Source of the DNA: Pycnococcus provasolii
Taxonomy: Eukaryota; Chlorophyta; Pseudoscourfieldiophyceae; Pseudoscourfieldiales; Pycnococcaceae
NCBI GenBank assembly: GCA_938743325.2
Contig: OW568889.1
Coordinates: 186,001-250,000 of the forward strand
Length of the DNA: 64,000 bases
Direction: 5' to 3'
Part shown: positions 3,001 through 56,910 of the stretch, in pieces
Layout: each line of letters opens with the position of its first letter
Position numbering within the stretch: position 1 is the stretch's first letter
The notes under the pieces: model-generated
The model's database searches: none
Told to the model about the DNA's origin: nothing
What the model saw: only the letters and a program-made list of their open reading frames with translations
Made by a program: the position numbers and the translations under genes

Positions 3001-4874
3001 GCACTGCCGTACCTTCCCGCACCTTGCTCAGAGGTTGGCATTGCCGCCGCCGCGAGAGCTAGCAAACTCGGGGCGGCAAGAGTCGCGGCCCGGCGCGAGC
3101 TGGCGGCACATGCCGCCGAGGCGGCGGCACCACGGCTGCGAAGACCCATCGCAGCTGCGATCCGCGCAAGGTGGTCTGGAACGGGCGGCGCGTTGCACGC
3201 GGCGGTACCACCGCAGAGCATCGCGGCACGAAGCAGGGGAGGTCCACCCGCCTCCGCTTCCGTGGGTGCGAACACGTACAATAGCAGGGTATGTGCCATG
3301 GCAAGTTCCGGATCGTGGCTGCGAAGCATTGCGGCAGCTGATGCTACCGCGACACCTCCACCGCCGGACGGCACGGTGAGAAGCCTTGTTGCCACCTTGC
3401 GCAGCAGAGGATCTGTGATTGCCGGTAGCTGCTGCCGTGCGGCGGCCGCCGACGCCTCACATCCGGTGGGAATCTTGGAAGGTGCTAGTGCAGGCTGCAT
3501 GAGCGCAATGCTGACGACAATCACGCCAAGAGCGCGTACATCCTCATCTCGTGCCAATGTAATCAATGTCATCGCGCTGCTGCGTCGCTTCTCACGTCGC
3601 TGTTGATTTGGAAGGACAATTGATGGCGGCACCATCTTGGGTGTGGGTGTGGATGTGGCGATAGTGATGTCATCATCGCTGTCATCATCGTCGTCGTCGT
3701 CGTCGTCGTCGTCATTGCCACCGACATCTGATAGGAGGCGTGGCACCACTCCTCCGTGTGAAAGTCTCTTTGGGTGAGCACTTCGAAAGATGGCGCAGAT
3801 TCCGTGCGCCTGACGAAAGATTCGTTCAGACATGGGACAGACATCTGCCGAAGCGCGCGTGAACTCGCCTCGCATCCATCCATTCGACGCATCGCCAGGC
3901 ACACAGCCTTTCCCAAAAGCATGTGCAACATGACTACGTGCTGTCGCGGCGTCGCTGGGCACGAGAGGCACGTTCATCGCGCTCACAGCGTCGTCGCCAA
4001 ACAAAGCCGCTCCAAACACGAGATCGATCCACCGATGCAGTTCCGAACTCGCACGTCGACCCTCCAGGGCGCGTCTGTGTTTTTCGATGAAGCGCCGGCG
4101 CGCCTGCTGCACGTTTTCATCTTTGCCAAGGCACCAATCGGGAACCGCCATATCGGCGAATTCTCTGTGTCTGCTTTCAAAGAAGTGTTCATCCTCGTAC
4201 AGCTCTGGCACGCACTCGTCCGGTGTCCAAGAGTAAAGTCTCACGAGTGTCTTTGGATACTCTCTCGCCTCGAAGCGCGTGCGTACGGCACGCGTCAAAC
4301 TTGCCAGAGGCAGGTGTCTCGCAAAGTAGATGTGATAAGCGAGCTCGGACAGCGGGGCGTCCGGAACGTGGTGTGGACAAGCCTCCGGCGGCGGCACGGC
4401 ATCGTCGTCGTCGGTGGTGATGGTGCGCCACTGCGCAAGCATCTGCTCGCCAATGCTGTACGAAGCGAGCAGCTGCTCATCTCCCTTATTGATTCGCCAT
4501 TTCGAGCGTGTAAGATCACGCCAGCCGGCGGCGGCGGCGGCGGAGGTGGTGGTGGTGGTGGTGGAGGAGGTGGTGGTGGAGGAGGAGGAGGCGGGGGAGT
4601 CGTCGATGATGCCTCCGTCGCCGACGCCGCCGTCGTCGCCATCGTCGTCTGGGTCAACCGTGAAGTCAATCACCCATGGCACGAACGGGTGTTTGTTCGG
4701 GTCGCCACGTCGGCGACCTGCAAGCTCGTTCAGCTTGAGCAGGTACTCCAAATTGGTGAGCGCCCCAACGCGCCAGGCTGCTGTCGCGGCGTGAAGTGCT
4801 TGAACTGGCAGACGTATCCGTCGACGTTCATGTACATCGACGATCCGTCGTAGCGACCGCTGACGAAGCTCCAT
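1..4874 (-). CDS. BEACH-WD40 protein, WDR81/GFS12-like, 3' end beyond the window
   Basis: One minus-strand frame is open from about 5083 to the window edge, so at least 1,600 codons are present and the C-terminus is missing. Near the N-terminus is a BEACH domain of the WDR81/LvsG/GFS12 type: LTNLEYLLKLNELAGRR (around 4760), HPFVPWVIDF, RLYSWTPDECVPELY (4259-4215) and FGAALFGDDAVSAMNV (around 4000). A segment VRALGVIVVSIAL (around 3540) resembles the kinase-like part of these proteins. A very Ala-rich helical region follows. WD40-like repeats start near 900 (VVHTWRAHRRP, IVRIWDVSSGG) and run to position 1. Such proteins act in endosomal/vacuolar traffic and autophagy. The first ATG is at 4874 but lies inside an overlapping LamG-coding stretch, so the true 5' end is uncertain; conserved sequence starts near 4800. 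Family sure, gene model incomplete. Confidence 0.85.
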   Translation of the reverse strand, partial: MELRQRSLRRIVDVHERRRIRLPVQALHAATAAWRVGALTNLEYLLKLNELAGRRRGDPNKHPFVPWVIDFTVDPDDDGDDGGVGDGGIIDDSPASSSSTTTSSTTTTTTSAAAAAGWRDLTRSKWRINKGDEQLLASYSIGEQMLAQWRTITTDDDDAVPPPEACPHHVPDAPLSELAYHIYFARHLPLASLTRAVRTRFEAREYPKTLVRLYSWTPDECVPELYEDEHFFESRHREFADMAVPDWCLGKDENVQQARRRFIEKHRRALEGRRASSELHRWIDLVFGAALFGDDAVSAMNVPLVPSDAATARSHVAHAFGKGCVPGDASNGWMRGEFTRASADVCPMSERIFRQAHGICAIFRSAHPKRLSHGGVVPRLLSDVGGNDDDDDDDDDDDSDDDITIATSTPTPKMVPPSIVLPNQQRREKRRSSAMTLITLARDEDVRALGVIVVSIALMQPALAPSKIPTGCEASAAAARQQLPAITDPLLRKVATRLLTVPSGGGGVAVASAAAMLRSHDPELAMAHTLLLYVFAPTEAEAGGPPLLRAAMLCGGTAACNAPPVPDHLARIAAAMGLRSRGAAASAACAASSRRAATLAAPSLLALAAAAMPTSEQGAGRYGSATSASAAGAVVAGVLGSACARRVAVASGLALLAAVARGGDAASAMLQGGGRESASPAAAAAFAESVLGPSALDASRVKCGIEAHARLVSAACVQSIAAIQRALDAHTVSMERVSLAMGVGCGADVAEAEEDDDAHSASISSLAEDTRIEQAGDGGGADVGAVDGAALVAGLRRLASAYAAAIARDSSSLPLSLAIRYVVDPLLAALDESAAEGEVDVGATHASDAMAAAPARELARALASAASAACPPLWLADYVLPRLMRRVDAGANALNSVLEAASGGGGDRPDDMRVEACAARAASVAVDVLADLTSVIPPETLVDVVVAPRAAVDGSRRHGSVSSPFEAGAQPTPPTPSASENLAGDGAATSAAADIEATQALAGGGPLVRLALLASPLNIMRTHAALRGVLAQVDRGAVVDVLIGSAERAGGATVTHFLLPQLLQILREPLLDDADADVDNEKGSGGVVSPGRDRVAAGAARAIRMRMMNANLRACASLLRCMSTHAPSSVLSSGIDSARLRALAVTLRGSGQVEASEIASHMATELLNSSDAGTETPPSGRLSRASSLGKSSSITSPPGIRSLLASAATAVASVDAVRRGSLDSATSTQGGTQLRTAVEAQRDAERWRHAERAVALLSSTGWGEPAADSPMLTQQQPDSPPSDTAAAALSDSPFTVNSDMEQQQQQQQPTVACRWGWVPVTSRSFADRWHFSGEVVHTWRAHRRPIRCATVDSAEEVLLTGGRGDDDSGGGIVRIWDVSSGGRVVSPGNQAASVSSGEYRRHSDPVIAVAALTRRRAISVDRGGDCHVWLIAMHGGCPTLCELSAPPPTSTAPPSSSSKASSSSGFTSVETCGEECEQAIAGTADGRVVRIDLERGCAGAAWSPGPFDGGGTEPGGAVTSLTCDARGELILAGYAGGGMAAFDCRSGGRAVAFVNAHEGGVSSVLVQRSDAEVSTRMVPTRYAPPRLADTSRLASHVLLSGGADRAVKLWDVRTWKPMRSVRVH

Positions 4875-5062
4875 TTCCCGGCGGTCACGGGACACTTGTA
4901 GCCCGTCATCTCGCGGTAAACTCCCTCCTCGATGCGCACGGCAAAGTTCAGCTGGCCATCCACCGTTCCGAGCGAGATTCCAAAGGCGCCAGCGCTCGAC
5001 GGCAGCGAGAAGATCGCCTCGCCGTGCGCAAAGGAATGCGTGCGCACAGGGAGGGGACAACC
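4808..5062 (-). pseudogene. Laminin-G/concanavalin-like domain fragment
   Basis: A short minus-strand frame without ATG, opened by a stop at 5063-5065, reads as the second half of a LamG_3-type domain: LGTVDGQLNFAVRIEEG, then TAGKWSFVSGRYDGSSMYM and NVDGYV. The GKW..V...YDG pattern is diagnostic. It stops resembling LamG at about 4808, where the BEACH coding sequence begins in a different frame. No signal peptide or upstream half is visible. It could be an orphan exon, a relic of a surface-protein gene, or an N-terminal domain of the BEACH gene broken by a frameshift. Confidence 0.6.
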
Positions 5063-5223
5063 TCAACCTCCCCGGAATACGTCAACCAAAAATGCAGGGT
5101 TTGGGACGCCCCAATTTTTTTGGGACGCCGGAGGCGTCCCTGGGGGACTCCCTCCCCCCCATGTCCAACAGCGGTTTTGGTGTCCCAATAGTACACGTGG
5201 TATTTCCACTCCGATTTCTCCAA

Positions 5224-5286
5224 ACCTCCCCGTCACGTGATTAGACCTCCCCGTCACGCGATTAGACCTCCCCGTCACGCGATCAC
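5224..5286. repeat. Three tandem 21-bp units
   Basis: Unit acctccccgtcacgYgatta(g) repeats three times head to tail with one or two substitutions. It lies between the LamG fragment and the MITE. No coding potential seen. Confidence 0.85.
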
Positions 5287-5300
5287 GCCCCCCAACCTAC

Positions 5301-5670
5301 TACCAAACTCCGGCCAGAAAAAAATGTACCCCCCCCTTCAGGGCATACCACCCAGAAACATGTGCTTGCAAACCCATGGAAAAGTGAAACACCCTTCGCC
5401 ACAACCACAATCTACAACGGAAAACTAAGAAAACTTTCGAAAATAACAGGTGAAAATAGACTAAATGTTTGTTCTTCCCTTCCAGGTTTCCCTTCCGGGC
5501 CGCGGCCCGCTCGAGGTGACCGTTTGAATTCGTCGAGGACAGGGGAACAAGTGGACCAAACCTGCCGTCTTGGCACCATGTAATAGGACAAAAATATATC
5601 GATGGTACCCCGTTCATTGGGTGGTAGAAGGGGGGGGGGTACATTTTTTTCTGGCCGGAGGTTTGGTACG
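5301..5670. mobile_element. MITE-like element with about 50-bp terminal inverted repeats
   Basis: The left end (5301-5353) starts taccaaactccggccag and runs through an A-tract and a C-tract to cataccaccc. The right end (5619-5670) is its reverse complement apart from small length differences in the homopolymers and one extra base in the outer part. The interior (about 265 bp) has no convincing ORF. Size, TIRs and lack of a transposase fit a non-autonomous DNA transposon. I could not define a target-site duplication. Confidence 0.75.
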
Positions 5671-6016
5671 TCGTAACTGACTAGGTGCACGTTTTTGCAC
5701 GTGTTTCAAAAAAAATGGTGTGGAGGCCAGGACTGTCGCACGATGGTCGCTACATCACCTTCATTTGGTGGGTGCCGACAATGCCGTTGCGCACACCACC
5801 ACCACCGCCACTCACTCCGCCGACCGCCGCTGGCGCCGCCGCAATCGTCGTTAACAACGAGGAGGAAAATATCGCTGCCGCCTCTAGTGCCGGTGGTGCC
5901 GCCGCTGGCGCCGTTTTGGACGTGCCGAGTGGTGCCGGCGTCGTCGACGCCTTCGCCCGATACGCACACAAAAACAGAAGAAAACGACGACGACGCTGCT
6001 GTTAGCGTGAGGAGCA

Positions 6017-6030
6017 CCCTAACCCTAACC
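6017..6030 (+). repeat. Short CCCTAA (telomere-like) array
   Basis: Two adjacent CCCTAA units plus partial copies. The stretch 5671-6415 around it has no gene I can support: an Ala/Pro-rich ORF at 5714-6005 is low complexity and unconvincing. Confidence 0.6.
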
Positions 6031-6123
6031 CGGACCCAGCTAAGACGGCGCCCTAATCCTGTTGGTCGAGGAATTTGGTCGGGCCGGCTGTGTTTGGCGA
6101 CCTAAGCCCTGCGACACCAGAAC

Positions 6124-6152
6124 GTGACATCACGCTGACGGCGTGATGTCAC
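6124..6152. repeat. Perfect 12-bp hairpin
   Basis: gtgacatcacgc (6124-6135) and its exact reverse complement (6141-6152) flank a 5-nt loop. It sits upstream of the retroelement remnant. Confidence 0.8.
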
Positions 6153-6250
6153 ACCATACTCGCTCACAGTCGCGGCAAGGTTGAGAGACGAATATAGATG
6201 GGCCATTACATGCGACGCTTACCGCTTCGCGTCGCGAACGGCGACACGAT

Positions 6251-6386
6251 CTAACGTTGTCAAACAAGACCCACACCTTTGTACTTTTTGGGTCAGGGTT
6301 AGAAATTTTGACCACCTTCTAACGTTGTCAAACAAGACCCACACCTTTGTACTTTTTGGGTCAGGGTTAGAAATTTTGACCACCTT
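6251..6386 (+). repeat. Tandem duplication of a 68-bp unit
   Basis: Two identical 68-bp copies (6251-6318 and 6319-6386), each beginning ctaacgttgtcaaacaagac and ending ttgaccacctt. Identity suggests a recent event. The unit contains tcagggttag but no ORF. Confidence 0.9.
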
Positions 6387-6511
6387 CTATTATCCGCGGC
6401 ATTGACAGGTGGGGAATGGGCGAGATGTTCGTGCGTTCAAAGCTCAAAGCTTCAGTCACCACGTACAAAGCACGCTCCAGCGGAGCAAAACCCACGCCGC
6501 AAGAGCGGTTC

Positions 6512-6913
6512 CTAGTTGTCCCGTGCGCTTTTCAATTTAGCCGTCGCGTGTCTCGCGCGCGATACTCCCTCGCTGTCGACGTATTTAAGTTCCAACGCGG
6601 CGTTATTCCAATTCAAGAGCGCGAAGTGCGCCTTAAGCGCGTCGAACGACATGAACGGCGTGAAAGCTTGAACTCTCTCTCTCCCACCTGCCTCCATCCA
6701 TGCCCACGTGAAGGGTTCGTCCTCCGCACGGCGTCGCTGCAAGTCCGTCTCGCGGGTTACGTGAAGTTCCTCCTCGAGTGCGTGCTTTTCGCGGAGCGTC
6801 TGCCGAAGTTGCGCACGGGTCTCCTCGAGCTGCTCCTTCGTAACATTCGACGCGGCGATGAAGTCACAGAGAAGGTCATCGTTGTGTTTAATGTCGCGTG
6901 CCATCGCCCGCAC
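6512..6913 (-). pseudogene. Orphan coiled-coil protein fragment
   Basis: This minus-strand frame (ATG at 6904, open further upstream) encodes a heptad-rich helix (EQLEETRAQLRQTLREKHAL) followed by a non-repetitive part with FMSFDALKAHFALLNW. Composition looks protein-like, while the plus strand here is only an N-terminal extension of the Copia ORF and matches no Copia domain. I infer a fragment of another gene, lying antisense and joined at about 6960 to the Copia remnant. Family not recognised. Confidence 0.45.
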
Positions 6914-6960
6914 GGCAGGCGTATGACGGGCCGCACGGGCCGCTCTTCCGTCACGATCTC

Positions 6961-8194
6961 TTGGCTGTTAGTCAAGTCTCTTTACGGATTGCGTCAGAGC
7001 GGGCACAACTGGATGGTTGACTTCTTCTCTTTCTTGGAAGGGTATGGCATGTCTCAGTCACCCGCCGACACCAGTCTCTGGTTCCTTCACAAGAATGGAG
7101 TTCCCATCATTGCATTGTTTGTGCATACGGACGATGGAAAGATCGCCTACTCCGATCACTTAGAACGTGACAGATTCATGGATGCACTCTGCAAGCGATT
7201 CGATATTGGCTCGCAGCAGGAGCAGCTCACCCGAATGTTCAACATAAAGGTTAACTATCTACCTGATGGATCATTTCTGCTAAACCAAAAGGCATACATA
7301 ATGGATTTGGCTCGCACCTACAATTTGGAGCAGAACCCGGAAATTAATACTCCTATGTCATCTCATTTCGTCATTAAGGTTAAGTCTGAGCTGACCGAGG
7401 CTGAAAAGCTCAAGATGAAGACTAGGCCTTTCCTTTCTTTATTCTCAGCTCTTCTGTGGGTGAATAGATGCACACGTCATGATATCAGCGTTGCGCTGAT
7501 TGTTATTTCTCGGGCGTTAAGTAATCCTGATCCCACGCATTGGAATCAGTTGATTCGGATTCTTACTTACCTGGTCAACACATGTGAAGAAGGTCTGGAG
7601 TATAAGGCTATCGATCAGCCACTGGCCCTATCAGTTCTGGTTGATGCGAGTCACGCAAGCTGTCCTATAACTGGGCGAAGTATTTCTGGATTGTATGTTA
7701 CATGTGGCAATTGTCTTTTGGATTGGTACTGCAAGCATCAGCCGTATACTACTCTGAGCAGTGGAGAGGCCGAGACCGTCGCCGGAGCGACCGCAGTCAC
7801 TCATCTTCTCTATTGGAAGCAGTTGTTTCTTCATGCTTTTCAACTAAGTGTGCAAACTTTCCTCTTCAGCGACTCAACTACGTGCAGAAATATCTTGACC
7901 AATCCGATTCACAACACGTCCATGAAGCATATCAGGACGCGATTGTTCTTTACGCGCGAGCACGCTCGTGCTGGAGTCTTCAAGCTCCTTCATACTCCAG
8001 GTGACGATAACCCATCTGATGCACTCACAAAACCTTTGTCTTTTCAACGAATTCAACACCTCATGCAGGTACTTAAGTCGTGGGGTTACCGCGTACTAAA
8101 TTTCATTAGGACTTCAGCGCAGGCATCGGCCGATGAGCCGTCAGCCAAACGCATGAAGCAGACCACAGCACACGCCGATGGCGATGCATTCTAA
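6961..8194 (+). mobile_element. 5'-truncated Copia retrotransposon: reverse transcriptase and RNase H
   Basis: The frame encodes the second half of a Ty1/Copia reverse transcriptase (KSLYGLRQSGHNW; FVHTDD at the place of the YVDD catalytic box; LNQKAYIMDLARTYNL) and a complete Copia-type RNase H (VLVDASHASCPITGRS; TTLSSGEAETVAGATA; LHTPGDDNPSDALTKPL). Gag, protease, integrase and the first part of RT are absent. The ORF reads 5' into unrelated antisense sequence at about 6960. The coding part has no stop or frameshift, so the copy may be fairly young. LTRs could not be identified. Confidence 0.9.
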
Positions 8195-9509
8195 TGCGCA
8201 GGACTGATCACCCTGACGCTCTCTCATCTTTTCTTTTCTTTTCTTTTTGTTTATACGCCTTCGTGGCAATTTTGGGTCCATGCATGGCATTGGCCGGACA
8301 GTGTCCTCATCGGTTTCATTTTCGTTTTCGGTTTCTTTTCCACCTTTTGTGGTTTTTCTTTTACCTTCAGTTTTACCTTACACGTGCAGCACCTTCGCCT
8401 GTTCGGCGTGGGTGGTGTGTGGCTTAACCCCTAATTCAGGTGGTTAACGCCGAACGAGGCTCTTGACCCCTAAGACCCCCGGGGAAGTCCCCGGGGATAG
8501 CCGCCTTAGGAACGGTTGTCTTTGTTTCCCTTTACGTGTAACTCTCACCTTTTTCCGGTTTACCTTAAGTACTCCTTCGTAAGTGTACGCGCGGCAGAGC
8601 GTACCGCGGCAACTCAAGGCGCCACCTGCCACAAAACGTGATGACATAACCTGTCGTCGTAGTCCTGTAGTAGTAATGTAAAGAAAGTGTAGATCAGTTA
8701 GAGTAGTTAAGTGATGGTTCGATCAGAACGCCACGTCGAAAATGCGGTCGCCGTTTCGAACTCACCGCCAACATGACACGCGTCACTTTGGTATAAATGA
8801 CACAAATGACATTGCATTTTCGGTGCCCACGCCATCCCGCACCTGCGGCATGCGGCCGGCCTGCGGCCGGCTTCGTGCGAGGCGGCATGCGAGCTGCTGG
8901 GCGGCGACACAGACACAGGCGCACAGACAGGCGCACACACACAGGCGCCACCGACAGACGGAGGAAATGAAATGAAGAGGTGAGAATGCGAGCTGAAAAG
9001 GGGAGGAGAAAGGGAGAGAGGGAGAGAGGGAGAGAGGAGAAAGGGAGAGAGGAGCCTACGCCACTCTGATATTTTTGCTTCAATCCTGTGGGGCCTATGA
9101 GACAACCTAAGAAGGTGGTCTTTCTTTCTTTCTTTCTTTTTTGGTGATTTCCTTTTTTTTTAATTTCCACTATCGCTTCCCTCATGGACGAAAATGTTAG
9201 GTCCATCCAGGAAGAGATCCGCCACTTCCCCTGTGGTACGAATCCCCTACCTATAAGAACGCGGGCCGAGATTCTGCCTGAGGGAGGGCCGAGATGCTGC
9301 CCCAAACCCCCGGGGAGGGCCGTGATTCTGCCCCAAAAGAGGCGAAATGCGCAAAGTGCCCCAAAACCCCCCAGAGGGCCGCTTGTAGTGCCTACGACCC
9401 GAAGGTTACCGGGAGGAAGGGGGGGGGGGTAGGTCGGGAGGGAATTTTGCGCTTTCTCTCGAGAGCTTTAGGTCGAGGGTCTCGAAAAGAGACCCTGGAG
9501 GATCTCCCT

Positions 9510-9544
9510 GGAGGTGTCTTTTTTGGTGGAAAAAAGACACCTCC
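9510..9544. repeat. Perfect 15-bp hairpin (GGAGGTGTCTTTTTT)
   Basis: ggaggtgtctttttt (9510-9524) pairs perfectly with 9530-9544 around loop ggtgg. A related hairpin occurs at 10505-10535. Confidence 0.85.
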
Positions 9545-9685
9545 AAAAAGGAGATGCGGTACCCCGCCTTACGGCTCCACTCAACGCCCCTTGCTCGGTA
9601 TTTGGAAGCGGTCTTGCGGGAAGGGCAAGGCACCAACGCATCTCGCCCTTAAAAATAAGGTGACCTTTTGCAAGAATCCCTAGTC

Positions 9686-9743
9686 GGGAGTTTAGGTCCA
9701 TTGGTCAGGATGCCCATCCTGACCAACCGACCTAAACACTCCC
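9686..9743. repeat. Long imperfect hairpin
   Basis: 9686-9712 (gggagtttaggtccattggt...) pairs with 9715-9743 (...accaaccgacctaaacactccc) with a 2-nt loop and a few mismatches. It could be a very small foldback element. Confidence 0.75.
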
Positions 9744-9931
9744 CACTCTGGGTGCCCCCAACTTCTCCCCTTCCCTTCCCTTTCCTTCCCTTCCTCTCCC
9801 CATTCTCAACCTTAATGGCGTCATAGTTGGCGTCATAATCTACCTCTCCTTTCTCCACGCCGCCGAGACAGCTCCGACGGTTCTGAAGCAGTGGCAGTTG
9901 CTAGCAGTTACTGCAAGTAGTCCAGCTTGCG

Positions 9932-9962
<31 letters not shown>

Positions 9963-10504
9963 CATGACAACGCTCGCGACGGCGACGGCGACACGGGGTG
10001 CGACGGCGATGGCGACATGGGGTGCGACGCCGACACCGACGCTGACGGCTCACAAGAGCTGACCGGCTGACTCACCGGCTGGCTCAGGCCGGCAGACTGT
10101 CTATTTGGGTGTTGGTGGTCTTTATGTAACAACATCTTGTAACATGTGTGTTATTAAAAGTTCACCTCTCTCTCTCTTCTTAAGGTGCCTTAAGATTGTC
10201 CCTCTCCCTTAAGGTCGACACGAACTACCGCGTTGGCTCGAGAAAGACACTGCGAGTGCACGCGTCTGTAGCGCTGTCGACCGTTCCTTGCGCGTTTTAA
10301 TTCCCTTCCCACGCCTATTGGCATGATAGGTGGTGGGCGCCTCGTGCTACGTCCTGTCTTAGGATGGGATGGAAAAACGAGCGCGTCCGCTGCCTCCCAC
10401 CCTTATATCACATGTGATTTAAGTTCCCACATAATCTACCAGGAGCCTAGGAGGGGTCTTACAACTTAGACAACTAGGGGCCGCGTCCCCTTTCCCCCTG
10501 GGGT

Positions 10505-10535
10505 AGGTGTCTTTTTTAGCCTAGAAAAGACACCT
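10505..10535. repeat. Second AGGTGTCTTTT hairpin
   Basis: aggtgtctttt (10505-10515) pairs with aaaagacacct (10525-10535). The same core as the hairpin at 9510 indicates a repeat family. Confidence 0.75.
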
Positions 10536-10840
10536 CTGAGTTCTCACCTCCTTAACAACGGTTCCCCACAAAGCATATCAGGTATAACCTCGACAGAACT
10601 GGTCCAAGGATTCCCCTTCGGGGTTTGATTCGGGGTTTGATTCGGGGGTTCACAGGCTATGTTAGAGTTTGTTTCCGATTGACGGAATGACGAAGCAGGC
10701 CGGTCCCTGAGCCTACGAAGCAGGCCGGTCCCTCACCTCACGAAGAAAGACGAAGCAGGCTTTTCCCCTCCCTCCCTCCCTCCCTCTTGTTTCAGGAATC
10801 ACTTTATTTCGGAAAAGCAGGCAAAGCACGCTACCCGGGT

Positions 10841-13069
10841 ATGGAATACCTCGCTTATTATGAGTCGACGGACGAGTCGTCCGTCGACGACGACGAAAAC
10901 CTTGACTTTTATCTTGCGGACGACGACGACGACGACGACGACGACGAGGAGGAGGATTCGCAGCAGCAACTTCTCCTGGAGATGAGCATGGACACAGACC
11001 TTCTTCAACACGGTGATGTCTCGTTCCCCTACTCTCACAACAACAATCAACCAGAAGGAGAAGAAGAAGACGACAACGACGACGACGGATCGAGCAGTGT
11101 GCAGAAACGCGTGCGTGCTCTCGTCCTGCAACACCTCAAGCACGCTCTCAAACAACAACATGCGGATGCCGCCGCTGCCGCAACAACAACAACAACAACC
11201 CCCCCTCCGCTCATGCGAACGTTCGCACGCCTGGACGCCAACCAGCAACCAGTCCCAGTCACCAGCGCCTTGAAATTCGCCGCGTCGTCAACTTTGAAAC
11301 CAAACCCGCTGTACGTGCGCACACTCGTCGTCATGGTCGCAGCATGCAACTTGATACGATCAAACAGCAAAAGGACAATTCGCAACCTGTATTACCAGCT
11401 CAAGACTCTCGCGCCGGTTGACTGCATAAAAGCCCTGGCTTCTTCCGCGACTGTCGAGAGCGATGCACGGCTCTCGGATCGCATACGCGAATGCTTCTTG
11501 AAACCGTCGTCGTCGTCGTCGTCGAACAACAACAACAACAGCAGCAGCAACCTCGAGGCTGCTGCAGCATCACCACCACCACCACCATCGCCGCTCTTTC
11601 CGGAAAGTCGGTCCGTCACATTTGCCGTGAAGAGCGCGTGCGCACTCCTGAAGTGTCGTCGCATGGACCTGCGCTTGTGCTGCTCACCCAAAGGCTCGTA
11701 CGCAGGCTGCCTTGTCGTGGACACCGCACGTGGCGCAAAGCTGGATGGAAAGACGACGGGAAATGGGGGCATTCTCATACCTGGAGACATCTCCGAGATT
11801 GCGGAGATGAAGGTGACGTGCAACTGCAAATTGGTCATCATTGTGGAGAAAGATGCCGTCTTCCAGCAACTCGTCGAGCAGAGAGTGTGGGATCGCATCG
11901 AAGGAGGCTGCGTCGTCGTCACAGCACGCGGCATGCCCGACCTGGCGACGCGTGCATTCTGCTGTCACCTACGCGCGGAAATGGATGCATGTATGCCTGC
12001 CAACGCGGTAGTTTTTCTTGGACTCGTGGACTGGAATCCTGCGGGACTCGCTATTGCAATGACGTACAAGTATGGCGGTGTGCATGGCGGTCGCGGCAAT
12101 GAACCACCACCACAGACGACGACGCCACAGAATGAGCGAGATGAGCAGCATGGGCAGGAGGAGATGAAGGAGCTGACCAATGAAGAAGAGATTGTGATGG
12201 CGACCAAAAAGCCGCGAGGTTGCGACGACGACGACGACGAGGAGGAGGAGGAGGAGGAGGAGGACTACAGCAAGGAGGCGAAGCGTCGAAGGGTTGGCGC
12301 TGGGGCTGGTGAAGGCGAGGCGAGGTCAGTGCCGATGTACTCGCCGTGGGGTGAGGACGAGACGAGAGTGATCATCGACTACCTGCAGAGGAAGGGCATG
12401 AACAACGGGTGCTGGGCATCCATCAGCAAGGAGCTTGGAACGGACCCTACGGAGGGCAAGCCGGTGCGCACGGGTGTGCAGGTGAAGGACCGCTGGCGCA
12501 ACTTGTGCATTGCCGCCGACCGGACGGACACGAAGAAGAGTCGCAATCCCGTCGCGGAGGACATTTTGGTGAGTGTGCGCAGCATTCGCACGCTGGCTAA
12601 CGGCAAGACGCCGCGGCAAGTTGGCAAGCTGGACGACGGCACCCCTAAGGAGAGCAAGGGCAAGGGCAAGGCGTCCGCCTCCAATCGGCGGGACGCAGTC
12701 TGCGCGGAGTCTGCGCGGTACGCGCTGGGCAGCAACTTCAAGCTGCTCGGCTTGCGAAAGTGCCACCTCGACCAGCTGCAGGCGGATGCTGACTACGCTG
12801 CTGCGATGGATGCTGCAGCGTTTGGGACTACCAGCGCCGTTCCTTCGACGACCGCAATCGCATTCCAGCCTCTCACGGAGCGCGATGAGGCGATGCTCTG
12901 CACGATCGTGGACGGCGCGTGGCTCGTCGCGCTCCCCGAGAACTATACCATTCTCAGCGAGGCAAAAGCCATGCGCAGGCGGAATGGTAAGGCGGAACTG
13001 GAGGTGGTACCAGACTTAGTGACTTTTGTCGCTAGCGAGGTGGAAAACGGCGAGTACGACGACTATTGA
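10841..13069 (+). CDS. SPO11: SPO11/topoisomerase VI A-like protein with a Myb-like domain inserted in the TOPRIM region
   Basis: 742 aa from the ATG at 10841. The N-terminus is acidic (Asp runs). A winged-helix part carries the SPO11 active-site context (SKRTIRNLYYQL) and the LRLCCSPKGSYAGCLVV strand. The TOPRIM half follows: KLVIIVEKDAVFQQLVEQRV, VVTARGMPDLATRAF, FLGLVDWNPAGLAIAMTYKYG. DWNPAG resembles plant SPO11-1 more than DADPHG of other family members. After KYGGVHGG about 195 residues are inserted: an Asp/Glu tract and a Myb/SANT-like domain (SPWGEDETRVIIDYLQ, VKDRWRNLC). The SPO11 C-terminus then resumes (YALGSNFKLLGLRKCHLDQL, LTERDEAML, KAELEVVPDLVTFV). SPO11 makes meiotic double-strand breaks by transesterification through the Tyr. 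A polypyrimidine-CAG at 10760-10795 looks like a splice acceptor, so an upstream exon is possible. Confidence 0.88.
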   Translation: MEYLAYYESTDESSVDDDENLDFYLADDDDDDDDDEEEDSQQQLLLEMSMDTDLLQHGDVSFPYSHNNNQPEGEEEDDNDDDGSSSVQKRVRALVLQHLKHALKQQHADAAAAATTTTTTPPPLMRTFARLDANQQPVPVTSALKFAASSTLKPNPLYVRTLVVMVAACNLIRSNSKRTIRNLYYQLKTLAPVDCIKALASSATVESDARLSDRIRECFLKPSSSSSSNNNNNSSSNLEAAAASPPPPPSPLFPESRSVTFAVKSACALLKCRRMDLRLCCSPKGSYAGCLVVDTARGAKLDGKTTGNGGILIPGDISEIAEMKVTCNCKLVIIVEKDAVFQQLVEQRVWDRIEGGCVVVTARGMPDLATRAFCCHLRAEMDACMPANAVVFLGLVDWNPAGLAIAMTYKYGGVHGGRGNEPPPQTTTPQNERDEQHGQEEMKELTNEEEIVMATKKPRGCDDDDDEEEEEEEEDYSKEAKRRRVGAGAGEGEARSVPMYSPWGEDETRVIIDYLQRKGMNNGCWASISKELGTDPTEGKPVRTGVQVKDRWRNLCIAADRTDTKKSRNPVAEDILVSVRSIRTLANGKTPRQVGKLDDGTPKESKGKGKASASNRRDAVCAESARYALGSNFKLLGLRKCHLDQLQADADYAAAMDAAAFGTTSAVPSTTAIAFQPLTERDEAMLCTIVDGAWLVALPENYTILSEAKAMRRRNGKAELEVVPDLVTFVASEVENGEYDDY

Positions 13070-13188
13070 CTCTAAATATTTGCAGGCGGAATGCTAAGGC
13101 GGAACTGGAGGTGGTACCAGACTTGGCGACATTTGTCGCTAGCGAGGTGGAATACGGCGAGTACGACGACTATTGACTCTAATTATTT
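12975..13188 (+). repeat. 107-bp tandem duplication of the SPO11 3' end
   Basis: 12975-13081, covering the last 31 codons, the stop and some 3' UTR, is repeated at 13082-13188 with a handful of substitutions. The second copy lies after the stop, so it is 3' UTR rather than coding. Confidence 0.92.
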
Positions 13189-13504
13189 AGTACTATTTAT
13201 TGATTGATTGATTTATAGTAAAAAAAAGTAAGCAACTCCAGGCATCGCCATCGCGGTCACGCGAAACGTCGCGACTGGCAGGGATTCAGACTTCGCGAAA
13301 CGATTGAATACACCAAACATTGCCATCGTGTGGGGGAAGTTGCCAGCCATGTGCATCTCCGTGGCATTTGCGGTAATGTTGAGCGTAAGGGACGACGAAC
13401 CCCTCAGCACGCCGTGCTTCGCGCTGGGATATGTAAGCCCGTGCTCAAGCCGCTGACTTGTCGAAGCTCCCAGACGAGCAGGCTTGTTCCCTGGTTCGTG
13501 ACTT

Positions 13505-14332
13505 TCAATGAATCGTTCGCAACGCCCCCAACCTGAACCGCGATGTGCAGCCCCCCACCAAGAACTTCCAGTTTTGGTGGCATCTCGCGGTCACCCAACA
13601 TGCGAACCGCGTCAATCTCCGCCTACGGAGGTGCACGAAACGAGACACGAAGCTTGCGCGTGCGTGTCCCGGTCGAGCGCAGCAGCTCGGAGTACGGCGT
13701 GACCGTCGCGCCGAGCCGCACAAGAGCGCCCACGCTGCCTGCAGCGCCGCCTGCGTGTCCGGCGCCTTGATCACCTTTGAGAACAACATGGTGAGTGCCG
13801 TGAGGCTGCGCAGCACCTCCAGCTGCAGCGCGACAGCCGCGTGGTCGCCGTCGTCGGCGCGCGGCGTTGCAAGCACAGCCGTCATGGCTGCGAGCCATGC
13901 GGGCAGCGTGGGTGCAAGCAGGCTCTCCGCCTTGGCCCGATTTTCCTTTTGTGACGCCATGAGTCCGAGCGTTCCGATGAAGGTTCTGAGCACGCTGAAC
14001 GCGCGCCGTCTTGCCTCCGACCCGTGTCCTCTTGACCCGTTCGCGATTGCGCACAGTTCAGGCAGCAGTGCCGGAGCGTAGAGTTCCACCTGCGTGTCGT
14101 CCACCTCGTCAGCAAGCAAGGACATGCACCTGAGAGATCCGGCGACGGCGCGCGCGGACGCTTCCGCGTGTCCTGGTACACCGTTTCCTTGGAGTAGGCT
14201 GACGAGCGCCGGCATGAGTGCCGGCCAGTGTTCTGGAAAGTCGAATTTGGCGACGGCTGCGATTGCCATCGCCGCCGCCGTTCTCAGTTTCGGCGCGGCG
14301 TCCGCGAGTCCGGGTAGGATGGCGGCGCGCAC
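13505..14332 (-). pseudogene. Importin-9-like HEAT-repeat fragment
   Basis: The frame begins without ATG directly after a stop at about 14335. It reads like the N-terminal HEAT region of importin-9/Kap114 nuclear transport receptors: LADAAPKLRTAAAMAIAAVA, FDFPEHWPALMPALVSLL, VELYAPALLPELCAIA. After AALQAAWALL (about 13725) sense continues only in another frame (LVRLGATVTPYSELLRSTG), which ends at a stop at 13623. Two more protein-like stretches follow in two frames (13404-13601 and 13213-13410). The first 90 or so residues and the C-terminal bulk of the family are missing. I read this as a decayed fragment; a missed intron is possible at the frame change. Confidence 0.6.
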
Positions 14333-14427
14333 GGCTTATTTATCTGCGTCGCTGATTTGCTGCTGCCGTGTTGGTGTCGTATCGTCCGTTCCTGCAGCGG
14401 GACACTACAGTGTCTTGACGAGTCATT

Positions 14428-14625
14428 TCAACAGGACACGACGGGCGCGGATGTGTCAACGATCCATGGCGTCGCCGACGAGGGAGTTCCCACATTACCC
14501 GCGCGGTCGACGGCGCGCACGTCAAACGTGTGCGTGCCGTCGAGCAGGCTGAGGTACCGCCAAGGCGATGTGCACGGCAGGTAGTCGCCTCCGTCGAGCG
14601 AGCACTCGAAGTGGCTCACTCCGCT
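14428..14625 (-). pseudogene. Bacterial-Ig-like repeat fragment of a surface protein
   Basis: The last 60 or so codons of a minus frame give a typical Ig-like repeat: FECSLDGGDYLPCTSPWRY, LLDGTHTFDVRAVDRAGNV and PWIVDTSAPVVSC. The repeat is usual in large secreted or adhesin-like proteins. Upstream (14630-14832) the frame is low complexity with no signal peptide, and it overlaps the TOM22 promoter and start on the other strand. It looks like a stray piece of a larger gene. Confidence 0.5.
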
Positions 14626-14807
14626 CTCCTCGCCAGAGGACCGAGGAGCCCGGGCAGACCCAGGGGGGGTGGCGGCGCTCCCTGTTCTGTTCCTCTCCCC
14701 CTTGTGCTCGTACGTTCCCCTCGGCCCCTGTCCCCTGGACGTCCCACCACGCGCACTCGCCGTCGTCGTCGTCGTTTCACACAACAACCAGGTCAGTCTC
14801 TTCGAAG

Positions 14808-15044: not shown

Positions 15045-15375
15045 CTGGAACTGCTCATTCTGTAATGGAGTTTCCTTCCTACCAAGGTGTGCAACAGTCC
15101 CTCGTCGTCCATTCACGCCAACAACAATCGCGCGCCCTGCCATTCCCAATTTCCACACGACCGTTCTCTCACAGGTTCACTCACGCGTATGCACGGAGCG
15201 CTCGCTCGTTGTCCCACGCTAAACGCTAACGAGAGCCTGTTTTGTATACGAACGGAGAGATAATATTTATGGAGGGAAAAGAGTCGCCATAGGCGTCGTC
15301 ATGGGTGTCGGGGGCAGAACGGGAAGACACCACTAGCCCTAACCCTAACCCTAACACCCATTTTGTGGTAAAGGT
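15045..15375. other. Intergenic region TOM22 to chlorophyllase
   Basis: No ORF with protein character. It contains the CCCTAA array at 15337-15355 just before the next start codon. Confidence 0.6.
15337..15355 (+). promoter_or_regulatory. CCCTAA box upstream of the chlorophyllase-like gene
   Basis: Three CCCTAA units end about 20 bp before the ATG at 15376, on the coding strand. Plant telo boxes (AAACCCTAA) are known promoter elements of growth genes; the regulatory role here is inference from position and recurrence. Confidence 0.5.
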
Positions 15376-17130: not shown

Positions 17131-17141
17131 TAACCCTAACC

Positions 17142-17174
<33 letters not shown>

Positions 17175-32544: not shown

Positions 32545-32568
32545 GTTAGGGTTTAGGGTTAGGGTTAG
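32545..32568 (-). promoter_or_regulatory. CCCTAA box upstream of TMEM115
   Basis: Reads AACCCTAACCCTAAACCCTAA on the minus strand, about 82 bp upstream of the TMEM115 ATG and 27 bp past the end of the desulfhydrase gene. Orientation matches the other CCCTAA boxes relative to the coding strand. Confidence 0.5.
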
Positions 32569-38982: not shown

Positions 38983-39059
38983 AGCCTAACCCGAACCCTA
39001 ACCCTAATCCGGAAACCCTAACACGGAAACCCTAACCGGATCCCCCTATAAATAACCCT
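38983..39059 (+). promoter_or_regulatory. CCCTAA cluster and TATA-like box before the NCBP3 gene
   Basis: At least five CCCTAA or near units occur at 38983-39035, followed by ctataaata (39047-39055), about 70 bp before the ATG. The C-rich strand is again the coding strand. Promoter function is inferred. Confidence 0.55.
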
Positions 39060-52172: not shown

Positions 52173-52721
52173 ATGCCTGAAGGTGAAAAGCGCGTGTTTG
52201 GACAACAAGTGGAAGTTGACACGTACAACGCGCAAAACCTCGTGAATGCTGAGGACGATGGTATTGTGAGTGCCGCTCGGAGAACGCTTGCTCTTGCCGA
52301 CGAACGATGGCTGACGCTCCCGATATGTGATGTGCGGTTGGCAAGAGCCAAGAATGCCGCGACGCGATTTGTGCCGGGCAGCCATTCACACACGCCAGCA
52401 ATGATCCCCGACGGCGCGCCTCGAGGACTCTTCTGTGCTGGTGACGTCGTGCGACAAAGTCCAGCTGATTTCAACGTTCATCGCGGCGCACGTGGCCTGT
52501 CGCAAGAGAAAGCGCTCGTCACCGGTCTCGCCGCGGCCGAGCAGGCTGCTAAGGATTTCCTCGGCTTGCGCGAGGTGAGCGCATCGGTGCAGCCCCTCGC
52601 CGTCGACGCTGACGAGGAGCACATCTCAATCGCGAAGGAGTCCGTGCGCCGCGCACGCGAGCAAGGTTTCGTAAGGTTAGACCTATTACCATCGAAAAAT
52701 CGCAGATTTTGGGTGCTATGA
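52173..52721 (+). CDS. FAD-dependent amine oxidase/desaturase-like C-terminal exon, partial
   Basis: First ATG at 52173, but the frame is open back to about 52082, just after a splice-acceptor-like tttcgcag. The readable part is the C-terminal FAD-contact region of amine-oxidase/phytoene-desaturase-like enzymes: LPICDVRLARAKNAATRFVP, GAPRGLFCAGDVVR and SQEKALVTGLAAAEQAAKDF. GLFCAGD is the typical FAD-binding end motif. The N-terminal Rossmann GxGxxG half is absent. The 3' end may be a donor site (tttc|gtaagg, about 52670) rather than the stop at 52721. So it is an internal exon or relic. Confidence 0.55.
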   Translation: MPEGEKRVFGQQVEVDTYNAQNLVNAEDDGIVSAARRTLALADERWLTLPICDVRLARAKNAATRFVPGSHSHTPAMIPDGAPRGLFCAGDVVRQSPADFNVHRGARGLSQEKALVTGLAAAEQAAKDFLGLREVSASVQPLAVDADEEHISIAKESVRRAREQGFVRLDLLPSKNRRFWVL

Positions 52722-52736
52722 TGACTAAAATGGACG

Positions 52737-52754
52737 TCAAATGCGATCCACGTC

Positions 52755-52789
<35 letters not shown>

Positions 52790-53009
52790 CCAAATCCGGC
52801 AAAGCATCATCATCATCGTCGTCGTCGTTGCCGCCGCCGCCGCCGTGGTAGCCATCATGATCATCATCACCGCCGTTGTTGTTGTTGTTGTTGTCGTCGT
52901 CGTCGCCGCCGACGAAAAGATCCAAAAGTGCTCGCACCATGCGCTTTATCATGCGCGTGATATTGAGGAGATCACCATTGAAACGCCCAAATCGTCGACG
53001 TAACGCCAT
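52737..53009 (-). CDS. Small acidic protein, unknown
   Basis: 90 aa, ATG at 53009. The first 33 residues are mixed and amphipathic (MALRRRFGRFNGDLLNITRM); the rest is Asp/Asn/Gly repeats from GTC/GTT microsatellites. CCCTAA-like sequence lies 190 bp upstream on the same strand, as for other genes here. Could be a real small protein or a chance ORF through a microsatellite. Confidence 0.4.
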
Positions 53010-53189
53010 TGTTATTGAAGAGAAGAGATGAACAAATGATCGGAAGCGAGAGAGTCAAAGTATCTTTCGTTGTTGGTATTATCTCCGAGACGTAAAGCGG
53101 AAACCCCGATTTCCCGTTCTGGGGGTGGATTCTATAAGAAGCCTGGAAAAAAAAATTTCTATAAGCCTGGGGGGCTCCACTACTGGGGA

Positions 53190-53280
53190 AGTATCGGTTA
53201 GGGGTTAGGTTTAGGGGTTAAGAGTACCATTCGCTGGTTAGGGGTTACGATAAACCATTCGGGGTTAATATGCCCTTGGT
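53190..53280 (-). repeat. Degenerate TTAGGGG repeats
   Basis: Several ggttaggggtta-type units (53196-53260) on the plus strand, i.e. CCCCTAACC on the minus strand. Degenerate relatives of the CCCTAA boxes. Confidence 0.5.
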
Positions 53281-53307
53281 ACTACCAATGTTCGGGGTTC
53301 CTAAACT

Positions 53308-53520
53308 TAAAGCCCCCCCGCAATCGAAAAGCGGGCCACCCCGGCCCCCGACCTAAACAGCAGTTATATTCCCCTGAATTATTAGTTTGCGCCACTAGTT
53401 TTTCCAGTTATTCGCATAGAAATAAGAAAAACCTTCCCCCTCCCTGCCCCCTCCCTGCCATTCCCGGGGAGGGGGGGGGGGGGGGCGGGGTGGCCCGCTT
53501 TTCGATTGCGGGGGGCTTTA
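53308..53520. mobile_element. Short MITE-like element, TIRs about 36 bp
   Basis: Left end taaagcccccccgcaatcga...gggccaccccg (53308-53344) is the reverse complement of the right end cggggtggcccgc...gggggcttta (53485-53520), apart from one base in the C-run. Total 213 bp, no ORF. Unrelated in sequence to the element at 5301-5670. Confidence 0.8.
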
Positions 53521-53684
53521 TTTAATTCATTCCGGCTCGTCCATCCGTCGATTCTTTATATTATTCCGCCATACGCCATAGAATATACAATATTCTGTAC
53601 TGTACTGAAGTTATTTGGTTGTGTGCTCCTCCAGCCTGACTCCGGCTCCGGTATTCATCATAGTCTTATTGGAAAGAACGAACT

Positions 53685-54683
53685 ATGGCGGCGGCATCGT
53701 CGTTCTTCCACGGGTCTTTCCACAAATATCACATATCACTCATACTCGCTGCTAATATTCGTGTGCTTGGTGGGGCGTCGTCGTTCAGCACGATGGTGGT
53801 GAGCAACAAAACGTGCCGTCGTGATCCTACCTCAGCACGACCCGCGCCGCACTCGTCGTCGCAGCGTCGCACCGTGGGTACGCGTGCGGCATGCGACGGA
53901 CGCACCAACGTCATAACGGATGCTGCGCGGTGCTCGCGAGGACTGTTCACCTTCGCATCGGCGTCAACATCAAAATCGCAAAGTCTTACGCCTCGCTTGA
54001 TGATGCTCATGCCACGCCGCAAGCTCTTCGTGCAGACGCAAAATACTCCCAACCCTCTCTCGCTCATGTTCCTGCCCGGCGTGGACGTCATGGCATCGCT
54101 TCCTAACAGTACTGCGAAAAGCCACGACTTTCCGAACGCGCGCTCCGCCTTGACGGCCAACTCGCCGCTTGCACGTCGCCTGTTCGGTATTGACGGCGTG
54201 ACGCGCGTCTTTTATGGCAGTGACTTCGTTACAGTCACGAAGAGCGAGGAGAGGGACTGGGGCGTGCTGAAGCCTGAGATTTTTGCCGCCATCATGGACC
54301 ACTACAGCAGCGGCGACCCACTGTTCGCGGAGTCCGAGGATGGCGACAACGGCGAGGGCGACGTTGACAGCTCGACGGTGATTTTGGATACAGATTCGGA
54401 GGTTGTGGCTATGATCAAGGAGCTGCTCGACACACGCATTCGGCCTGCGGTGCAGGAGGATGGCGGCGACATCGGGTACCGCGGCTTTGACGAACAGACG
54501 GGTGTCGTGTATTTGCAGATGCAGGGTGCGTGCGACGGCTGCCCATCGTCATCCGTGACGCTGAAGAGCGGCATCGAGAACATGCTCATGCACTACATCG
54601 ACGAGGTGAAAGCGGTGGAGCAGTGGCTGGACGAGGATCCTGACGAGCCGCTCGTATTTGGGCGTTCGAAGGAAACCGAGTAA
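53685..54683 (+). CDS. NFU1: NFU1-type mitochondrial iron-sulfur cluster protein
   Basis: 332 aa, ATG at 53685. The first 110 residues are basic, Ser/Ala-rich and uncharged in part, a long mitochondrial leader. The Nfu N-terminal domain follows (QTQNTPNPLSLMFLPGVDV, SPLARRLFGIDGVTRVFYGS, WGVLKPEIFAAIMDH). The NifU C-terminal domain has IRPAVQEDGGDIGYRGFD and the cluster site GACDGCPSSSVTLKSGIENM (CxxC). It binds a 4Fe-4S cluster and passes it to lipoate synthase and complex I/II. Unspliced, and it starts 165 bp after the MITE. Confidence 0.93.
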   Translation: MAAASSFFHGSFHKYHISLILAANIRVLGGASSFSTMVVSNKTCRRDPTSARPAPHSSSQRRTVGTRAACDGRTNVITDAARCSRGLFTFASASTSKSQSLTPRLMMLMPRRKLFVQTQNTPNPLSLMFLPGVDVMASLPNSTAKSHDFPNARSALTANSPLARRLFGIDGVTRVFYGSDFVTVTKSEERDWGVLKPEIFAAIMDHYSSGDPLFAESEDGDNGEGDVDSSTVILDTDSEVVAMIKELLDTRIRPAVQEDGGDIGYRGFDEQTGVVYLQMQGACDGCPSSSVTLKSGIENMLMHYIDEVKAVEQWLDEDPDEPLVFGRSKETE

Positions 54684-55630
54684 ACTATCGTAACAGCTTT
54701 TAACTTTAACAACACTCTTTATATATGTACATACCGTCCCCCGTTTGATTCGCAAAACATAACAAATCCGCGTTGACCGACCGGTAATCGACTTCTTCAC
54801 CCTCCATCGGAGCTCCATCAGGCGCCAACCACCCACCGCAGGCTTGAATCCGACGTGCACTGATTGGGAAGCGACGCTCACGGCGTACGAGCTGGATGAC
54901 AGTGGAGGGACTCCCCAACCAGGATGCGAGATCACGAGCGTCACCGTGAAATGGTCGCACACTGATACTACTGCCGGCTGCCCCGTCTGATTTCTCTCTT
55001 ACGGACGAGTTTTTTTCTTGGTTTTAGTCACGGAGCAATTTTGATGTCAAAACCGTCGTGCGTGCCTGCCAGCATCACGTGCGGTCAATGTTGCGCTCAT
55101 GAACAAGAACTCTCGCACTAAGTTAGTTTCCGTGTTGTGAAGCGAGTACGCAGGCATAAGCATTGCCTGCAGATAGCAGCGTCGTGCTGCCGTGGGGAAC
55201 GTGTAACGTACCCCTTCGTTACCTACATAAGATCGCCCATTCCGTTGTCTCTCTCCCTCCCTATATTTTACGACGACGACCCACCTACTAATAACCCAAC
55301 GTAGCCCTACATATGTGACAGACAAGATAAACTTTACCAGTCAGTGGTACATGTATGTCCCACCCTACGTACGATAGGAGAAAGATGGTCGAATGCAAGG
55401 TAGGTACAACACAGTAGTAGGTAAAACAATATCTCTCACGTTATTATAGTAAGGGCAAGATTGTAACTATGAGTAGTTGGTAGATCGTCCGAGCGAGTAG
55501 TCTAACTTAACTACCAACGGTATGTAATAAGGGGGAGAAAGAAAAAAAAATCAAATTTGAGATTTCCCCCTCCCCTTTCTTCGTGTGTGTGTGTTTTCCC
55601 ATCAGCGCAGATCACACTCTTCCTATCATC
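54684..55630. other. Intergenic with a coding-like scrap
   Basis: At 54771-54990 a plus frame without ATG ends NPTCTDWEATLTAYELDDSG, CEITSVTVKWSHTDTT and a stop. This Cys/Thr-rich text recalls secreted protein ends. The rest (54990-55630) is AT-richer with no gene. Confidence 0.4.
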
Positions 55631-56238
55631 ATGCTCCACGGTGGTCACGTCAAGGCGGTCGCGGCCGTCGCCATGTCGTTTGCGGCCGCCGTCGGTATCA
55701 GCACGCTCGCGTACCCGCGCGTGTTCCGCATCGCGTGCGAACGTGCGTTCGACTTTGTGGATGAAGATTCCTCTGGAGAACTTGACACGTCCGAGATCAT
55801 GACGGCTGTTTTGATGGTACGTCGTTGCAAATATATTTTTCCAAATAAACAACAACAACAACACACTCACTTAACTCACTCCATCTATCCCCCCTTTTGT
55901 CTGTTCAATAGCTGTACTCTCACCTGAACAAACGCCTTCCTTGGGAAGATCCGCCAACCAAGGCTCAAGTGCAACAGTTAATGGAACAAGCTGACGTGGA
56001 CCAAAACGGACGCCTTAACAAAGAAGAGTTTGTCAACTTCTGCAACAACTTTCTCAAAGGTGGAGAAAACTTTTTCAAGAGACTCTCTACCGGCATAACG
56101 CGTGACGTTGGCACAATACCCGCCGTCGCCAAGGGAGCTAAGGTTGCTTTGAAAGCAACAGCTATTGGCGCAGCCTTGCCAGAGTCCGTCGTCGCGGGTC
56201 TGGTCAGCACGACGACCAAGCTTGTCACCGGCAAATAA
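55631..56238 (+). CDS. EF-hand protein with N-terminal hydrophobic segment (two exons)
   Basis: Exons 55631-55816 and 55912-56238; the 95-nt intron (GTACGT...CAATAG) is phase 0, giving 170 aa. Residues 8-32 are hydrophobic (AVAAVAMSFAAAVGISTLAY), an anchor or targeting segment. Two canonical EF-hands follow: DEDSSGELDTSEI, and DVDQNGRLNKEEF in exon 2. The C-terminal third is Ala/Val-rich (VALKATAIGAALPESVVAGL), possibly another membrane-associating helix. Calcium binding is expected; partner and location unknown. Confidence 0.8.

Positions 56239-56877: not shown

Positions 56878-56910
<33 letters not shown>

Follow-up and report, generated by a model that had tools for sequence, protein, structure and literature searches.

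A SPO11-2-type reading frame with an internal TRF-like Myb domain in Pycnococcus provasolii, a likely young chimeric duplicate

Introduction

Can a DNA-binding domain become a built-in part of the enzyme that makes meiotic breaks? This question is raised by an open reading frame on contig C29 of the 32.3 Mb genome of Pycnococcus provasolii, which comprises 46 contigs (labelled C1, C2 and so on). The stretch analysed here, referred to as the window, has a length of 64,000 nucleotides and corresponds to C29:186001-250000. A sequence-only reading of the window had proposed that positions 10841-13069 are open throughout and encode a SPO11-type protein with a Myb/SANT-like domain in its TOPRIM half, which could target meiotic breaks. 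Indeed, the region consists of one frame of 742 amino acids with 0 stop codons; its features and those of the surrounding DNA are listed in Table 1.

Table 1. Features of the chimeric reading frame and its surroundings (window positions)
Feature	Positions	Strand	Evidence
Fragment identical to C23:630209-631098, which adjoins the truncated SPO11-Myb copy on C23	5667-6556	+	genome search
Ty1/copia-type retrotransposon piece; RVT_2 33.3 bits, cut-off 31.6	6962-8637	+	genome search, Pfam
Upstream region also present at SPO11 on C3 (73.6%, 242 columns)	10615-10832	+	blastn
Short filler that links C3-upstream DNA to the SPO11 coding part and provides the start codon (ATG, 10841)	10833-10885	+	match ends, junction print
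Chimeric SPO11-TRFL open reading frame, 742 aa, without stop	10841-13069	+	frame translation
SPO11 5Y-CAP/WHD, first TOPRIM part and loop start; 92.4% identity with C3	10886-12246	+	blastn
Catalytic tyrosine codon, Y185 in RNLYYQL	11393-11395	+	alignment
TOPRIM glutamate E336 (VEKD)	11846-11848	+	alignments
TOPRIM DxN motif D397-W-N399, SPO11-2-type variant of DxD	12029-12037	+	alignments; excerpt of PMC11302465
Entire inserted loop, 210 codons, TYKYG to ESARYALGSNFKLLG (starts ESARYALG)	12077-12706	+	sequence
Acidic-then-basic linker; greatest window/C23 divergence, 22 of 32 differing columns	12222-12295	+	alignment
Copy of part of the TRF-like gene on C37; identity at 380 of 388 bases	12296-12683	+	blastn
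Myb/telobox domain, residues 502-555, VQVKDRWRNL	12344-12505	+	Pfam; profile vs PDB
Modelled Myb and Myb-extension helix, residues 505-594; pLDDT blocks 73-89, last 63	12353-12622	+	AlphaFold2; NgTRF1 matches
C-terminal portion of SPO11 plus 3' flank; 96.4% identity with C3	12706-13237	+	blastn
107-bp tandem duplication at the SPO11 3' end (12975-13081, 13082-13188)	12975-13188	+	genome comparison
Fragment, C2:184641-185117, 97%	13237-13715	+	genome search
Fragment, C20:499699-500437, 97%	13698-14437	+	genome search
Fragment identical to C29:35490-35688	14434-14632	+	genome search
Fragment, C37:192151-192295, 87%	14630-14784	+	genome search

SPO11 identity of the protein

The TOPRIM family PF21180 covers residues 332-413 of the window protein (E=5e-18, 66.1 bits against a Pfam cut-off of 24.1), while TP6A_N reaches 20.1 bits, which is under the 26-bit cut-off, compared with 27.9 bits for the protein of a paralogous gene on C3. 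A sequence search of the PDB with the window protein returned Topo VI-A and yeast SPO11, and the first eight Foldseek matches in the PDB were Topo VI chains (E 5e-8 to 2e-3, TM by target around 0.5); thus, profile, sequence and fold agree with the proposed SPO11 type. The AlphaFold2 model covers residues 85-742, and in its alignment the prokaryotic and SPO11-3 rows end at the loop. Its mean pLDDT is 57.5, with blocks of 72-93 across most of the WHD and TOPRIM and of 60-68 near the DxN helix; the linkers and the C-terminal SPO11 part are of low confidence, and the C-terminal third is mostly below 50 except for the Myb domain.

To compare the catalytic residues, the window protein was aligned with SPO11-3 from this genome and with Topo VI-A proteins of 14 prokaryotic loci; the latter stem from 22 loci found, eight of which were omitted because they were partial, near-duplicates or contained long inserts. 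Y185 aligns with a tyrosine in 14 of 14 prokaryotic proteins, and the TOPRIM residues E336 and D397, the first aspartate of DxD, are conserved, with DWN replacing DxD. Just before the catalytic LYY/FY, each of the 14 prokaryotic proteins carries D or E, as do SPO11-3 and the C3 protein (RDLYY), whereas the window has N182. Judged from the alignment, this D182N change next to the catalytic tyrosine may reduce activity. According to an excerpt of PMC11302465, DxN is found in SPO11-2 and is absent from the other Spo11 paralogues, and an assignment to SPO11-1, which had been considered from the motif DWNPAG, was therefore dropped. The window protein resembles the SPO11-2 proteins of plants and protists, as far as that excerpt describes them, in the 5Y-CAP tyrosine, the TOPRIM glutamate and DxN; it differs by the long loop after the DxN helix, which carries the telobox Myb, and by a C-terminus that lacks the final stretch of the family. 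The TOPRIM family occurs at three places in the genome, namely SPO11-3 (C40), the window gene and C3. Judged by sequence, this fits a lineage that retained just SPO11-2 and SPO11-3, as described in part of PMC4647503 for, e.g., diatoms, red algae and prasinophytes.

The inserted loop

From the glycine of TYKYG to the next conserved strand (NFKLLG), 14 residues are found in SPO11-3 and in 14 of 14 prokaryotic proteins, 176 in the C3 protein and 219 in the window protein. The sequence-only reading had described the motifs flanking the insert as adjacent in normal SPO11; this holds for the family, but not for the C3 paralogue, which already has a 167-residue low-complexity loop without a Myb domain at the equivalent site. 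The length of the insert, previously estimated as about 195 codons, was close to the measured value. The loop sits after the TOPRIM helix that follows the DxN motif. As the C3 loop at this site is a long low-complexity stretch, a domain placed there need not disrupt the fold. The Myb domain would hang from disordered linkers, clear of the TOPRIM core, and its presence may be tolerated during folding.

An insert of this kind could also be removed as an intron together with the Myb domain, leaving an ordinary SPO11. The loop length is a multiple of three in both the window and the C3 copies, a GT at the beginning of the loop combined with CAG or GAG before ESARYALG would give an in-frame join, and codon usage is ambiguous as to the reading frame in the C3 loop (0.097 in frame versus 0.252 in another forward frame) and in the part before the Myb domain (0.18 in frame versus 0.299 in one reverse frame). 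However, the loop contains no stop codon, and its earliest GTs, GTGTGC and GTGCAT, differ from the donor GTAAGT (27493) of the one intron that was checked, a 74-bp intron of a kinesin gene in the window, which was inferred from the frame. Moreover, only 0.25% of base-shuffled versions of the C3 loop stay open, and the Myb part lies in frame on the coding strand with a codon usage that resembles that of the genome's genes (in frame 0.302; the two remaining forward frames -0.187 and -0.114). Removal of the loop by splicing is thus very unlikely, and the insert is, as proposed, not an obvious intron.

The Myb domain

The family Myb_DNA-binding (PF00249) matches residues 502-555 with E=8e-9 and 35.9 bits, above the Pfam cut-off. 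While this confirms a Myb domain, the generic Myb/SANT type that had been suggested was not upheld: the structural model identifies the insert as a telobox Myb of the TRF-like kind with a "Myb extension". Foldseek matches 9-13 comprise two chains of the NgTRF1 complex with telomeric DNA (2qhb), NgTRF1 alone (2ckx, 2juh) and RTBP1 (2roh), with E-values of 0.009-0.12; the match to 2qhb, the tobacco protein with telomeric DNA, has a probability of 1.00 and a TM by target of 0.75. A profile built from the three Myb segments of the genome and compared with the PDB gave plant telomere-binding proteins and TRF2 as the top ten, at weak E-values of 0.003-0.06, followed by ordinary Mybs at 0.2 and above. 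A generic Myb/SANT or GT-1-like domain was rejected, since telomere-binding proteins ranked first in both searches. The structure prediction produced a Myb domain together with its extension of around 30 amino acids, the latter as a fourth helix at model residues 489-501, and both match NgTRF1; a model of the Myb domain only, built without an alignment, had a mean pLDDT of 44.

The insert shares the single Myb domain, the telobox-like motif, the helical extension and the fold match to NgTRF1 (2qhb) with TRFL family 1, to which NgTRF1 and RTBP1 belong. In this family, the Myb domain is C-terminal in a protein of its own, as is also the case in the presumed donor on C37, whereas in the chimera it lies inside an enzyme. 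The telobox given in an excerpt of PMC4924339, LKDKWRT, differs in three of seven letters from VKDRWRN in the window.

Related copies and order of events

A genome search with the window protein gave 18 matches, ten of them at E<=5e-8 on C29, C3, C23, C37, C32 and C40 and the other eight weak (E 0.01-0.74). An initial pattern scan of the genome contigs yielded 65 matches with 0 relatives among them, and a pattern scan of viral contigs yielded 600 pattern matches with 0 relatives. The SPO11 frame on C3, read from TTG, encodes 791 amino acids, and its DNA is 92% identical to the window across the first part. C37 carries a full-length TRF-like gene of 391 amino acids, and 388 bp of its C-terminal part correspond to 12296-12683 with 97.9% identity; a paralogue of this gene on C32 has a Myb domain at the corresponding end and a ubiquitin match under the cut-off. 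On C23 lies a truncated relative of the chimera, with both fusion joins but no SPO11 5' half. This copy aligns colinearly with window positions 5186-14093 except for the missing 5304-5666 and 6557-11996, differs from the window in 32 columns across 11997-14093 and departs from the common sequence beyond 14093. Within the genome, the fusion is thus found only in the window duplicate and its truncated relative on C23.

The C23 copy also bears on the question whether SPO11 and TRF-like reads were joined by an assembly artefact. The near flanks of the C23 copy are not independent, being colinear with the window apart from the two gaps; however, both joins are present on this second contig, in a copy that lacks the SPO11 5' half, diverges past 14093 and shows the 32 differing columns, which makes an artefact highly improbable.

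Synonymous distances are 0.044 for the SPO11 duplication (0.019-0.057 by segment), 0.034 for the Myb capture and 0.016-0.019 for the C23 split. Although the underlying counts are small, this suggests that the SPO11 duplication was followed by the Myb capture and then by the C23 split. The direction is inferred to be from C3 and C37 to C29; the polarity of the SPO11 duplication is taken from the better conservation, within this genome, of the C3 copy, which, judged by its sequence, is probably the working SPO11-2. In the proposed course of events, C3-like SPO11 DNA would have become part of a fragment patchwork on C29, where the end of the C37 gene that encodes the Myb-telobox and Myb extension would have been copied in, replacing the low-complexity later part of a C3-type loop. 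If made, the product would be a SPO11 half-enzyme with the catalytic tyrosine and the TOPRIM E and D, tethered to a domain of the telomeric-repeat-binding type. Taken together, the window gene is likely to be a young chimeric duplicate of a SPO11-2-type gene and not an established SPO11 architecture.

Some smaller features of the copies were also observed. The C3 frame (L020 3629-6004) has 16 extra residues relative to the window before the DxN strand; an explanation of the 48-bp length difference at around 11980 as a deletion in the window, which had been based on C23, was dropped because junction prints assign the C23 stretch to another fragment. Near the C23 breakpoint (window 12026-12086; L021 3135-4250), four substitutions lie within about 60 bp, as error-prone break repair might leave them. 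The 107-bp tandem duplication spans the SPO11 stop codon and is common to the C3, C23 and C29 copies, and therefore probably predates the fusion.

The surrounding fragment mosaic

The chimera is embedded in a mosaic (4500-14784), whose pieces match C23, C5, a Ty1/copia element, C16, C3, C4, C2, C20, another place on C29 and C37. The fragments match at least eight other contigs; many are 97-100% identical to their counterparts, and some 73-92%. The four joins on the right-hand side overlap by 1, 18, 4 and 3 bp according to the match ends, and in the printed junctions the source switches abruptly. At the position of the filler that provides the window's start codon, C3 has around 450 bp, which include the N-terminal codons of the C3 frame. 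The Ty1/copia piece has at least 13 further near-full-length matches among the 40 of 293 candidates that were scored. At the C20-like fragment (13698-14437), a frame on the opposite strand (13508-14335) matches Xpo1 with 22.1 bits, just under the cut-off of 22.7. In a control stretch (52500-60000), copied pieces occur in the first 1.2 kb (52500-53700), and the gene-bearing remainder contains no pieces at E<=1e-20 among the 40 of 45 candidates scored. Patchwork intergenic DNA is thus not peculiar to the locus of the SPO11 chimera.

Selection and decay

Across 561 homologous codons, the window and C3 differ by 44 nonsynonymous and 17 synonymous changes, which gives an omega of 0.79; this does not differ from 1 (P=0.25; P=0.47 with kappa 2). 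When scored against a Topo VI-A profile, the C3 protein surpasses that of the window in the WHD (21.2 versus 13.3), the middle segment (18.8 versus 16.0) and TOPRIM-a (62.5 versus 60.2); of the other two segments, one is a tie and the C-terminal one scores 1.6 in C3 and 2.7 in the window. Between the window and C23, very few changes are available, with 3 synonymous and 2 nonsynonymous changes in residues 485-742 (omega 0.21) and 1 synonymous and 3 nonsynonymous changes in residues 387-466 (omega 0.83). Constraint on the chimera is read here as weak or recent at most. It is quite likely that C3 does the meiotic work and that the chimera is either a weakly constrained new gene or a decaying duplicate without an essential role.

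The frame is nevertheless intact despite a new start, two fusion joins, the 48-bp length difference and 61 substitutions relative to C3; at 11336-11352 and 11597-11613, apparent paired +1/-1 shifts restore the frame. In a simulation, 32% of frames remained open after 35 random substitutions alone, and the in-frame joins reduce this further, so that some selection for the open frame is plausible. These values bear on whether the locus is a pure pseudogene, i.e., an unexpressed pasted fragment whose frame is open by chance, which is an extreme form of a young duplicate and does not exclude it. The patchwork flanks, the truncated sister copy on C23, the replaced start region and an omega not different from 1 speak for this possibility; against it, three joins and the 61 substitutions have produced neither a stop codon nor a net frameshift, and the simulated 32% chance of an open frame is reduced by the in-frame joins. 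A pure pseudogene is therefore conceivable but somewhat doubtful. The notion of a lasting SPO11 architecture that directs meiotic breaks, in turn, finds no support in a fusion that is limited to a recent duplicate and its truncated relative, evolves near-neutrally at a patchwork locus and is accompanied by a better-conserved C3 gene without a Myb domain.

Possible targeting to telomeric repeats

SPO11 is a half-enzyme, which must pair and needs partners. If expressed, the telobox of the chimera would, on balance, be expected to bind TTAGGG-type repeats. A three-unit pattern of this type has 2982 forward and 2932 reverse overlapping matches in the genome, compared with 0 and 8 for the reversed pattern; among the matches listed, all lie inside C1. 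Furthermore, the window contains five arrays of two to six units (6017-6028, 15337-15354, 17134-17170, 32546-32564 and 38996-39007). As such repeats are frequent, an active chimera would have targets, and a match to MND1 indicates that meiotic genes exist in the genome.

A working enzyme could accordingly be envisaged in which the Myb domain tethers SPO11-2 to TTAGGG, either causing breaks at or near telomeric or interstitial repeats or holding the enzyme at chromosome ends. Besides the targets on both genome strands and the MND1 match, the intact frame, the retained catalytic Y, E and D and the TRFL type of the Myb domain with its extension are in favour of this idea; moreover, fusions of the Gal4 domain or dCas9 to break proteins can boost local breaks or recombination, although not everywhere, as described in part of PMC12078263. 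Nevertheless, the change relative to C3 is near-neutral, the catalytic motif has drifted, an intact paralogue exists on C3, and cuts in telomeric repeats should be costly. In addition, TRFL proteins need not act at telomeres: according to an excerpt of PMC4700174, the loss of all six group I TRFL genes of Arabidopsis caused no telomere defect. A working telobox-targeted SPO11 is thus unlikely. Slightly less likely still is a newborn self-targeting SPO11-2, which would have arisen by fragment capture, would be directed by its internal telobox to TTAGGG arrays genome-wide and could feed the surrounding patchwork by its breaks; such an enzyme would be a naturally evolved analogue of Gal4BD-Spo11.

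Relation to known systems

Chimeric duplicates can arise by fragment capture through Pack-MULEs, Helitrons or template-switch repair. The window gene resembles them in that pieces of several genes were copied into one locus, and differs in that its series of joins yielded a long open frame. With the engineered fusions Gal4BD-Spo11 and dCas9-SPO11-1, it shares a DNA-binding part joined to SPO11; however, those are man-made, with shown activity and with dCas9 at a terminus, whereas the window fusion is natural, internal and known from its sequence alone. In agreement with the earlier impression that the layout is undescribed, no natural SPO11-telobox or SPO11-Myb fusion appeared among the papers listed by a literature search; within this scope, the chimera is new as a combination, and it is probably not yet an established function. 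Since the likely donor, recipient and product are present in one genome, the locus illustrates how a DNA-binding domain can enter a low-complexity loop of the meiotic nuclease in frame. If active, the chimera would be a natural test of whether sequence tethering of SPO11 suffices to place breaks; if inactive, it would clearly exemplify a chimeric gene seen early in its life, prior to fixation or loss, and would warn against taking open chimeric frames for established proteins.

Outside this genome, in archaeal Topo VI-A frames of 565-761 amino acids (L080-L083), the family match ends near the TOPRIM DxD site, and one of these frames finishes at the contig end in LAGLIDADG-like letters; judged by sequence, they look like cases of an intein or a homing endonuclease.
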